64,000 nucleotides of DNA from Candidatus Neomarinimicrobiota bacterium (GTDB lineage: Bacteria; Fidelibacterota; Fidelibacteria; Fidelibacterales; Fidelibacteraceae): the NCBI GenBank assembly GCA_021157965.1, contig JAGGVO010000034.1, forward strand, positions 1 through 64,000, read 5' to 3'. The notes below the pieces were generated by a model, which saw only the letters and a program-made list of their open reading frames with translations, searched no databases and was not told the origin of the DNA. Below, in pieces: positions 24,012-27,240 of this stretch. How positions within the stretch are numbered: position 1 is the stretch's first letter; the number at the start of each line of letters is the position of its first letter. The translations under genes and the position numbers were made by a program.

Positions 24012-26300
24012 ATGAGAAAAAGATTGATATACGGATTAATGCTCCTGTTCATGATGGTGTCCATGTTGTCGGCTGGCATTGCAAGTGTCATTAAGACAAA
24101 AGGTGATGTAAAACTTTTACCTGCCGGCAGCTTTGATTTACTGACAGTTGAAGTCGGGACACAGTTGGAGAACGGGGATGTAATTCAAACGGCATCAGAT
24201 GGTTTTGCAGTTATTATGTTTAATGATGATAAAACCCTTTTAAAGCTGCGTGAGAATGCACAAATCACGCTCAACGATGAGATACCCTCCAGAACGGTGG
24301 AAATGGATAAAGGGGAAAGTTTATTTGAAGTAACCCCCGGAGCCCTGAAGGAATTCAGGGTCCAGACTCCGGTATCTGTCGCATCAGTAAAAGGGACCAA
24401 GTTCTGGGTGGTTTGTCAGGAAAATGAGGACAGGATTTTCACAACAGAGGGTACGGTTGAGGTTTTTAACACTCTGTCAGGACAGACGGGTACCGTCACC
24501 CGGGGACAGGTATGTATCAATACAACCGTTGGTGATATGCAGATCAGAAATTATTCAGCCTCAGAGCTTCCCGATGAATCGGTATTTAATTCCATGATGG
24601 AAGAACCTGTGCAAGAAGATACCCCTCAAAAAGAGCCTGAAGAGGAAACAGAGCCTGTGGATCGATCCGAAACAACCATTACTCCTGCGCAACCCATTAC
24701 GACACCTCAAATGGAGGAAACAACTGAAATGCCCGTTGAAACCGGAGAAGAAGAAGCAGAACCGGAAAAACAGCCTGAAGATGGTGAAGGGAAAAACTAT
24801 GGCGTTGGTCTGGGAGTGGGGTCTGTAACCATCAATGGGAAACTCTACAACCAGATCGCTGCAAGACCCACATTGCAACTGGGAAAACTTGGAGTGGGTT
24901 TGGATGTGGTTCTTTATATTGACAGCGAAGGAAATATCCTGGAAGATAACTGGAACTCAATGGACGATGTCCTGGATAAGATTTATTTCCTCAGCTGGGG
25001 ATTTATGGAGGATCCGTTTTATGTCCGTCTCGGTGGATTGGACCAGGTTACCATGGCAAACGGCCTCATTGTTTCGGGTTACACCAACATGTTGGAATAC
25101 CCTGAAGTCAAACGATTGGGAACCTACCTGAAATTCCGGACCGGAAAAATCGGATTCAATGGCTTCATAGCAGACTGGAATGAACTGGGCGGTGAAACAT
25201 TGATTCCCGGCTTGCTGGGAGGAAGGGTTTCTTATAACACAAAACTCATCCTGCCGGTCAGTGTGGGATTAAGTGTTATTTCGGATGTAAATCCTTACAA
25301 TGCTTTTGACAGGGATCGGGATGATGACGGGTATTCCGATTTGATGGATATGTTTCCCGATGACAGTGAAACTTACCGGGATACGGATGGTGACGGTCTG
25401 GCAGACAACAGGGACGTGGATCCTGCCGGAACAGGAGGATGGTATTATGATTCCAATCTGAATATGACTCCTTCCGAAATCAATGCGCTGGATAAGTATT
25501 TCAAATCTTTGGGATATACAAACGGTCCTGATTCTACAAGCACCCTGATGGAAGTTCCTACGATTTCTAAACTCATGGATGATCACCCGACAATATATTC
25601 CATAGGTGCAGATGTTACGGTACCTGTTTTGAATATGTCATTCCTGAACTTGAATGTCTATTCCGAAGCAGCGATTCTGGGTTATACCGGAGGAACGGTG
25701 GATAAAATGGCTTTCGGTGCAGCGCCTTTTGGCGTGGCAGCCAATATCATCAAAATCATAGATGCACGGGTTGAATACCGCTGGGCACAGGAAAATTTCC
25801 GCTATAACTTTTTTGACAGAAATTACGACATCAACCGGGTTTATGTGCAGAGAGATTCTCTGGGGAACATTGTTCCGAAGACCAAATTCGACCGGATTCT
25901 GAATGATAGCATTCCGGGGGTCCAGGGTATATATGGTGCTGCCGGTGTAAAGCTCTTTAACGTGGCTTACGCTCAGGCATCCTATATGCACATGGTGTCG
26001 AAAGATCAGGACGAAGTCCGGAGTTTTAATGCTCAGGCTGGTATCCAGAAAGGACTGGTTCCTAAATTATCGGAACTGTCCGCCTATTACATCCGCAATA
26101 ACGATCCAAATCCATTCAAGTTCAAAGATCCTTCGGAAAACACGATTTGGGGATACCGGGTCGGCGCAGAAGTGAGTCCCGGTGTATCCATAATCTGGAA
26201 TTTTATGACAACTTACCGGGATAAAAACGGTGATGGTGTTATCCAACCCAAAGAAGAATCTCTGAAAATCACCACTATTGAAACAGGAATTACACTCTGA
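24012..26300 (+). CDS. FecR-domain protein fused to a predicted outer-membrane barrel
   Basis: 762 residues. A signal peptide (residues 1-about 23) leads into a FecR domain (about 25-185): GDVKLLPAG, LENGDVIQTASDGFAVIMF, PVSVASVKGTKFWVV. A Glu/Pro/Thr-rich linker (about 195-260) follows. The rest alternates strands with glycine turns (GVGLGVGSVTINGKLYNQIA), as in outer-membrane barrels, and at about 432-472 carries a calcium-type Asp repeat (DRDRDDDGYSD then DTDGDGLADNRDVDP) resembling thrombospondin type 3 repeats. FecR domains usually act in sensing or assembly. AATGGAGGTCATAG is a strong ribosome site. Another exported gene follows after 10 bases. The function is unknown. Confidence 0.8.
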   Translation: MRKRLIYGLMLLFMMVSMLSAGIASVIKTKGDVKLLPAGSFDLLTVEVGTQLENGDVIQTASDGFAVIMFNDDKTLLKLRENAQITLNDEIPSRTVEMDKGESLFEVTPGALKEFRVQTPVSVASVKGTKFWVVCQENEDRIFTTEGTVEVFNTLSGQTGTVTRGQVCINTTVGDMQIRNYSASELPDESVFNSMMEEPVQEDTPQKEPEEETEPVDRSETTITPAQPITTPQMEETTEMPVETGEEEAEPEKQPEDGEGKNYGVGLGVGSVTINGKLYNQIAARPTLQLGKLGVGLDVVLYIDSEGNILEDNWNSMDDVLDKIYFLSWGFMEDPFYVRLGGLDQVTMANGLIVSGYTNMLEYPEVKRLGTYLKFRTGKIGFNGFIADWNELGGETLIPGLLGGRVSYNTKLILPVSVGLSVISDVNPYNAFDRDRDDDGYSDLMDMFPDDSETYRDTDGDGLADNRDVDPAGTGGWYYDSNLNMTPSEINALDKYFKSLGYTNGPDSTSTLMEVPTISKLMDDHPTIYSIGADVTVPVLNMSFLNLNVYSEAAILGYTGGTVDKMAFGAAPFGVAANIIKIIDARVEYRWAQENFRYNFFDRNYDINRVYVQRDSLGNIVPKTKFDRILNDSIPGVQGIYGAAGVKLFNVAYAQASYMHMVSKDQDEVRSFNAQAGIQKGLVPKLSELSAYYIRNNDPNPFKFKDPSENTIWGYRVGAEVSPGVSIIWNFMTTYRDKNGDGVIQPKEESLKITTIETGITL

Positions 26301-26310
26301 TACTGTTTCA

Positions 26311-27087
26311 ATGAACTTTTTGAAGCAATTCTTCCTTCTTATCCTGATCATTGCCTCCCTTTCGGCCGAAACGCCACAGGGAGGCAATGTTGTTGTATTG
26401 AGTCATAAAGTAGGACCGGAAATCAGCTATCTGGAAAATGCCTATTATAGCATTTTTCCTGATATCCCACAATTATGGTCAGCTCAGATATTATTTTTGC
26501 ATCCTTCTTGCTATGGAGTGAAAATTCTGTATCTGGATACCGGTTCTCGGCGGCTTCTGAAAACAGTGAAAAAATTAAGTCCCGGGGAGTTTGAAGCATT
26601 AAAACGGCGTGTGGATCTGACTCCACGTCCTACAGAAAAAGATATTCAAAGACTGACCGGCACCGATCTGCTGTTAAAACAAATTGGGTACTTCCGCAAA
26701 ATTCCGCTGGGATATCCTGTCAAAATCTACAGATCCCATGACAAACTTGTCAAAGGTATATTAATTGCACACGAAGAGAAGGGGATGATCATATCAGGTA
26801 AAAGCGGGTATGACAAGATTCCATACCCCATGATTGAAAAAGGATATTGGGTTGAGTACAGAACCCGGAATCAATCTCTGGACAAGTTTATCTATGGGGG
26901 AGCTCTGGGGCTCGGTGCCTTGGGGGGATATTTTCTTTTTCATGAGAATTCCGGGCCGGTTAGATATTATAAAACGACCGTTTCATCTGTCACTTTCCTG
27001 CTGTTTGTCGAGTTGATCAGGCAGACTTACCTGAGAAAAATCCCCCGCAAACATGCTTTTGAGATTATATGGCATAAGGACAATTAA
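26311..27087 (+). CDS. Exported protein of unknown function, partner of the FecR-barrel gene
   Basis: 258 residues from the ATG at 26311. The frame also opens at 26278 inside the previous gene, but 26311 gives a clean signal peptide (MNFLKQFFLLILIIASLSAE) and a start 10 bases after the preceding stop. The mature protein has a PVKIYRSHDKLVKGILIAHE segment suggesting a small beta barrel, then a Gly-rich hydrophobic stretch (FIYGGALGLGALGGYFLF) and a second hydrophobic stretch near 230. No family is recognised. Likely co-transcribed with and functionally tied to the FecR-barrel protein. Confidence 0.68.
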   Translation: MNFLKQFFLLILIIASLSAETPQGGNVVVLSHKVGPEISYLENAYYSIFPDIPQLWSAQILFLHPSCYGVKILYLDTGSRRLLKTVKKLSPGEFEALKRRVDLTPRPTEKDIQRLTGTDLLLKQIGYFRKIPLGYPVKIYRSHDKLVKGILIAHEEKGMIISGKSGYDKIPYPMIEKGYWVEYRTRNQSLDKFIYGGALGLGALGGYFLFHENSGPVRYYKTTVSSVTFLLFVELIRQTYLRKIPRKHAFEIIWHKDN

Positions 27088-27141: not shown

Positions 27142-27240
27142 GGCCTCAGGTCCCGTGCAATTGGGAAATGCTGAATCCCGTCAGGTCCGGAAGGAAGCAG
27201 CGGTAGGCATCAGAACAATGTGCCGGTCAGCCTGGGGTCC
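27142..27240 (+). ncRNA. ffs: Signal recognition particle RNA, small bacterial type (4.5S)
   Basis: About 99 nt. The universally conserved domain IV core GTCAGGTCCGGAAGGAAGCA is at 27180-27199, followed by GCGGTAGGCA on the closing side. The ends pair: GGCCTCAGG (27142-27150) with CCTGGGGTCC (27231-27240), leaving one U bulged. A T6 run at 27241-27246 terminates it. The RNA binds Ffh and targets nascent membrane and exported proteins. It lies 23 bases before dnaX, an arrangement also found in Bacillus (scr-dnaX-yaaK-recR). Confidence 0.95.

Follow-up and report, generated by a model that had tools for sequence, protein, structure and literature searches.

We analysed a 64,000-nucleotide stretch of DNA (the window), whose nearest named records are MAGs of Candidatus Neomarinimicrobiota (Marinimicrobia), as judged by a whole-collection single-sequence scan that reaches close relatives only. 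Two neighbouring genes on the forward strand encode a large exported protein, here called the FecR-barrel protein, and a smaller exported protein, here called the partner. The features of the locus are as follows.

24012..26300, + strand: FecR-barrel gene, 762 aa, encoding an exported protein with a FecR domain, an acidic/Pro linker and a C-terminal outer-membrane-type region (ORF; homologues phylum-wide)
24012..24074, + strand: putative signal peptide, approximately residues 1-21 of the FecR-barrel protein (from sequence; the hydrophobic N-terminus is also found in relatives)
24177..24461, + strand: FecR domain, residues 56-150, with the hallmark TPVSVASVKGTKF (Pfam PF04773, E 3.3e-13; conserved)
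24582..24797, + strand: acidic/proline-rich linker, residues 191-262 (residue composition)
24798..26297, + strand: C-terminal region, residues 263-762, a proposed outer-membrane beta-barrel (predicted; C-terminus TTIETGITL, almost no hydrophobic helices)
25284..25436, + strand: TSP3-like Asp repeat, approximately residues 425-475, a probable calcium-binding loop (invariant Asp columns; 5wtl profile match)
26220..26255, + strand: EF-hand-type loop DKNGDGVIQPKE, residues 737-748 (direct reading; D737, G740 and G742 near-invariant)
26311..27087, + strand: partner gene, 258 aa, encoding an exported protein with a conserved N-terminal domain, a probable SH3-like fold at about 136-183 and a glycine-rich C-terminal helical hairpin (ORF; relatives; low-confidence AF2 model)
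27144..27240, + strand: small SRP RNA (ffs), the next feature downstream, before dnaX, marking the boundary and lying outside the module (Rfam RF00169, 60.3 bits)

The stop codon of the FecR-barrel gene and the ATG of the partner gene are separated by exactly 10 bases, the spacing given in the preliminary description of this locus. A longer partner ORF from a TTG at 26278 is possible; the 258 aa are counted from the ATG. The neighbours of the pair in the window are housekeeping genes: upstream a flavoprotein on the other strand, which we take to be of the HI0933 type, an SMP-30-like protein and FtsK, and downstream, with the SRP RNA, dnaX, ybaB and recR.

FecR domains have a known role in sigma regulation. 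FecR was the sole Pfam match in the FecR-barrel protein, with PF04773 aligned over its whole length (model positions 1-97 of 97) at 50.3 bits against a cut-off of 24. Like the E. coli FecR-type sigma/anti-sigma regulators, the protein has a FecR domain with a conserved SVASVKGT-type core, predicted to be periplasmic. Unlike them, it lacks a cytoplasmic anti-sigma part and an inner-membrane helix: the signal peptide directly precedes FecR, the window protein has no other hydrophobic helix, and the FecR domain itself precedes a probable outer-membrane barrel. No ECF sigma factor gene was found among the immediate neighbours examined. The FecR-barrel protein is not a FecR-type anti-sigma factor, and a canonical FecR/sigma system was rejected because both the anti-sigma part and an adjoining sigma gene are absent. 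The linker contains 23 D/E and 10 P in 72 residues; across the phylum its composition is kept and its sequence is not, with lengths of 40-100 residues in relatives.

The FecR part also resembles the Leptospira adhesin models Lsa33 (E 8e-9) and Lsa19 (2e-5), at scores well below their cut-offs. The Leptospira Lsa33/Lsa19/LipL45 models and the LysM-FecR proteins (PMC5192318) share with the window protein a FecR domain in an exported protein, but the matches were limited to the FecR part, fell far below the family cut-offs and did not take in any C-terminal barrel-type region carrying a TSP3 loop. Other FecR proteins were seen in the same genome. On contig C41 (L104:1021-7616) an exported FecR protein of 257 aa lies in a run with an 836-aa familyless protein and a CHASE2-adenylate cyclase, and FecR proteins similar to it occur throughout the phylum. 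On contig C15 (L105:2753-11231) a 387-aa FecR protein lies between two large proteins, one of 885 aa and one of 1554 aa that carries Rha78A-type Ig domains.

The C-terminal region, approximately 500 residues long, belongs to no Pfam family, and a Pfam search of the FecR-barrel protein found no OmpA or SLH domain. Outer-membrane barrels usually end in a C-terminal pattern of the T-x-I-E-T-x-F-x-F type. When 36 relatives were aligned, every one ended in F or L (36/36), most had F at position -3, and the ending was mostly T-x-I-E-T-x-F-x-F, with E757 and T758 of the last strand invariant. Modelling of the region with AlphaFold gave no barrel (pLDDT 30), a low confidence that is expected with only four close sequences in the alignment. 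Beta-periodicity was at chance level for the window protein (z 0.2) and averaged z 2.6 for the family, compared with 3.0 for LptD, 1.2 for OmpF and 0.8 for soluble TolB; with OmpF, FadL, LptD and TolB as yardsticks, this test distinguishes poorly between known barrels and soluble TolB. A comparison of profiles against Porin_O_P, Toluene_X and an SGL propeller revealed no link, though Porin_O_P and Toluene_X missed each other over their barrels too. Taken together, the signal peptide, the C-terminal signature and the near-absence of hydrophobic helices make an outer-membrane barrel the most likely fold. Alternatively, the region could be a surface or periplasmic beta-rich domain, the pair then being a secreted adhesin and its helper. 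The AlphaFold outcome without a barrel, the weak periodicity and the likeness of the FecR part to Lsa33/Lsa19 would fit such a protein, but the conserved ending of all 36 relatives argues against it and the AlphaFold outcome is what so shallow an alignment would give. We consider this alternative very improbable.

Within the proposed barrel, six Asp residues (D425, D435, D437, D439, D446 and D465) were invariant in 36/36 sequences, and the family profile matched the TSP3 part of the solved OmpA-family protein 5wtl with E 1.3e-8. Pfam TSP_3 itself did not score in the window protein and was weak, and present in only 2/15, among relatives. Judging from its sequence, the repeat is probably a calcium-binding loop. 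With it, the three elements that the preliminary description had placed in one protein, a FecR domain, an acidic linker and an Asp repeat, were all recovered. A second calcium-loop-like motif that it had missed, D-K-N-G-D-G-V-I-Q-P-K-E, was found at 737-748, and related Dx(N/D)G(D/N)G loops are present in most, not all, relatives. Calcium-type Asp repeats also occur in other outer-membrane-associated proteins, namely TSP3-bearing 5wtl and BamM of Flavobacterium (PMC12611786), but the similarity does not extend beyond the Asp repeat and, for BamM, falls short of significance. Scans of viral contigs returned either TSP3-repeat matches in unrelated large proteins only, or nothing.

By profile search, FecR-barrel relatives were found in 135/150 genomes of the phylum, among the matches listed, and none was found in f7, a genus whose genomes are very small. 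The domain layout is conserved phylum-wide, and the alignment of 36 relatives retains many invariant residues at identities down to about 30%. Barrels without a FecR domain also exist and persist on their own (48 listed). In families f12, f16 and f17, FecR-less barrel paralogues lie directly before a gene of about 870 aa (alanyl-tRNA synthetase in L099) and a glycine-dehydrogenase-type gene (L099:5716-7308, L101:5903-7504, L103:5441-6904).

The partner gave no family match in the libraries searched. It had been described as exported with glycine-rich hydrophobic segments; the signal peptide and a glycine-rich C-terminal segment (GGALGLGALGGYFLF) are indeed present, but the hydrophobicity of the latter is weak. 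Similar glycine-rich, weakly hydrophobic C-terminal helices were seen in several partner relatives. The best-conserved positions are N-terminal (G35, E42, F49 and A58). An AF2 model of low confidence (pLDDT 50) consists of an N-terminal helix, a three-strand unit, a five-strand SH3-like unit and two C-terminal helices. The partner is possibly anchored in the outer or the inner membrane; anchoring by the hairpin would not be universal, since some f9 partner genes end early, before or within it.

We found the partner in 14/61 genomes by single-sequence search and, among the matches listed, in 82/150 by profile, 76 of them clear. The counts of partners and barrels given here are from the matches listed, and the genomes are not independent of each other. 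Among these matches, 71/76 clear partner genes lay directly downstream of a FecR-barrel gene, on the same strand and 8-647 bases away. For the remaining 5/76 no barrel was listed on the contig, and in G037 the partner adjoins a barrel fragment. No partner was detected next to a listed FecR-less barrel (0/48) or in genomes listed with FecR-less barrels only (0/11). FecR-less copies such as those beside alaS in f12, f16 and f17 lack the partner too. Conversely, 27/101 FecR-barrel genomes, among the matches listed, had no detectable partner. The partner therefore goes with many FecR-barrels and is not obligatory. The pair is conserved in many genomes, but absence of the partner beside homologues, which the preliminary description had named as refuting its reading, was seen in f3, f5, f8, f11, f14 and f16 and in one genome of the same genus. 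In f3 a different exported protein of approximately 195 aa, possibly a small lipoprotein or barrel, follows the FecR-barrel in the partner's place (L058:4346-4933, L061:4703-5293, L065:4619-5209, L057:3180-3827); it was considered as a diverged partner and rejected on reading.

In a tree of the barrel region, the window protein falls into a clade of 15 rows, with support of 100/100, that corresponds to families f1 and f2. Family f2 and genus g1 carry both FecR and the partner, apart from one g1 genome that lacks the partner only. Genera g2 and g3, from the window's own family, have the same barrel and lack both FecR and the partner. This joint absence, together with the lack of partners beside FecR-less barrels, suggests that it is most likely the FecR domain, and not the barrel, with which the partner works. 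The earlier proposal of a coupled gene pair is strongly supported by these observations and by the adjacency in 71 genomes.

We tentatively propose a two-protein envelope module of Neomarinimicrobiota, not an anti-sigma regulator, in which an outer-membrane barrel is coupled through a periplasmic FecR domain to an anchored partner; we regard this as possible. The larger protein would be an outer-membrane beta-barrel with a calcium-stabilised loop, and its FecR domain would hang in the periplasm on the long, disordered acidic/proline linker, whose 72 residues could reach at most roughly 24 nm when fully extended. The exported partner would be held in the envelope by its glycine-rich helical hairpin. 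Docking of the FecR domain on the partner would then connect the barrel with the envelope's periplasmic side, for tethering, placement or assembly. OmpA and OmpM (Negativicutes) are tethers of the outer membrane, each linking a barrel with a domain in the periplasm. The proposed layout of barrel, linker and periplasmic domain resembles theirs, but the window pair has no OmpA or SLH domain, its periplasmic part is FecR and it has a private partner gene. The pair may be seen as a barrel plus periplasmic domain, which is a known kind, with an unusual FecR head and a private partner.

The main rival of the tethering module is a sensing device, in which the barrel samples the outside while FecR and the partner hand on a ligand or the outer-membrane state to signalling proteins of the inner membrane. 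Genes that would suit such a role precede the FecR-barrel gene in families f6 and f9:

L077:4169-5787, L080:4286-5931 and L078:5350-6965: stand-alone response regulator and phosphonate-binding-like plus PAS protein, directly before the FecR-barrel gene

A CHASE2-adenylate cyclase is encoded two genes away from another FecR protein of the same genome, and published LysM-FecR proteins are found with CHASE2 kinases in two-component operons (PMC5192318). However, the window protein has no fused anti-sigma part, no sigma factor adjoins it, its neighbours are housekeeping genes, and neither the window's lineage nor the majority of neighbourhoods with a retained pair has the regulator genes. We judge sensing somewhat unlikely. 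The substrate-binding-type protein upstream in some families could also point to a channel or importer, the barrel being a porin, FecR its plug in the periplasm or an arm on which a substrate-binding protein docks, and the partner a periplasmic chaperone or gate. Such a function would agree with the outer-membrane-type C-terminus and with FecR-less versions being kept alone, as expected if the barrel has an activity of its own, but transport genes are not constant neighbours across families and no known porin family was matched; this explanation seems unlikely. The wording 'envelope assembly or sensing device' used for the pair in the preliminary description is a guess, and its statement that no named system is matched holds within the libraries searched.

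In other lineages the two genes can be further apart, with a gap of at least 230 bases in 43/71 adjoining pairs. All of the long gaps that were read (19/19) contain a SelW/Rdx-type gene with an in-frame TGA (CxxU), one of which matched Pfam Rdx with E 1.3e-23. A further gene follows the partner in several families; it encodes a charged, non-exported protein of approximately 120-170 aa, probably a coiled coil, often with a KKKGLFxRKKK-like tail and with no confident Pfam match.

L088:7952-8182, L087:7854-8081, and gaps in L084, L090-L092, L147-L156 and L159-L161: SelW/Rdx-type selenoprotein gene between the FecR-barrel and partner genes
L087:8861-9310, L090:8788-9276, L080:9079-9540, L083:3691-4173, L085:8361-8882 and L086:8306-8761: charged, probably coiled-coil protein after the partner

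A small ORF of about 45-55 aa with one hydrophobic segment, often with KTVxRxDxGxKGF at its start, was also seen directly after the barrel gene and before SelW (gaps in L084, L087, L088, L090-L092, L152, L156, L159 and L161). Rdx genes were found in 24/61 genomes and all carry the TGA. SelB scored above its cut-off in 37/61 genomes, none of them in family f1; the window's lineage therefore either lost the SelW part or never possessed it. A more elaborate version of the module can be imagined, a phylum-specific trans-envelope machine in which the partner is the docking site for FecR on the outer-membrane calcium-loop barrel and whose fuller form adds the SelW-type selenoprotein, the small membrane peptide and the coiled-coil protein, linking the outer-membrane state to a cytoplasmic redox protein. 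We hold this extension to be doubtful.

Since across genomes the partner depends strictly on the FecR domain, the two are predicted to bind each other. Our literature search found no paper joining a FecR domain, the outer membrane and Marinimicrobia. If the proposed module is correct, the FecR domain would be an arm by which an outer-membrane protein docks; we met no such use in the libraries and literature searched. The pair would also represent a conserved envelope module, open to testing, from a phylum with an almost unstudied cell surface.
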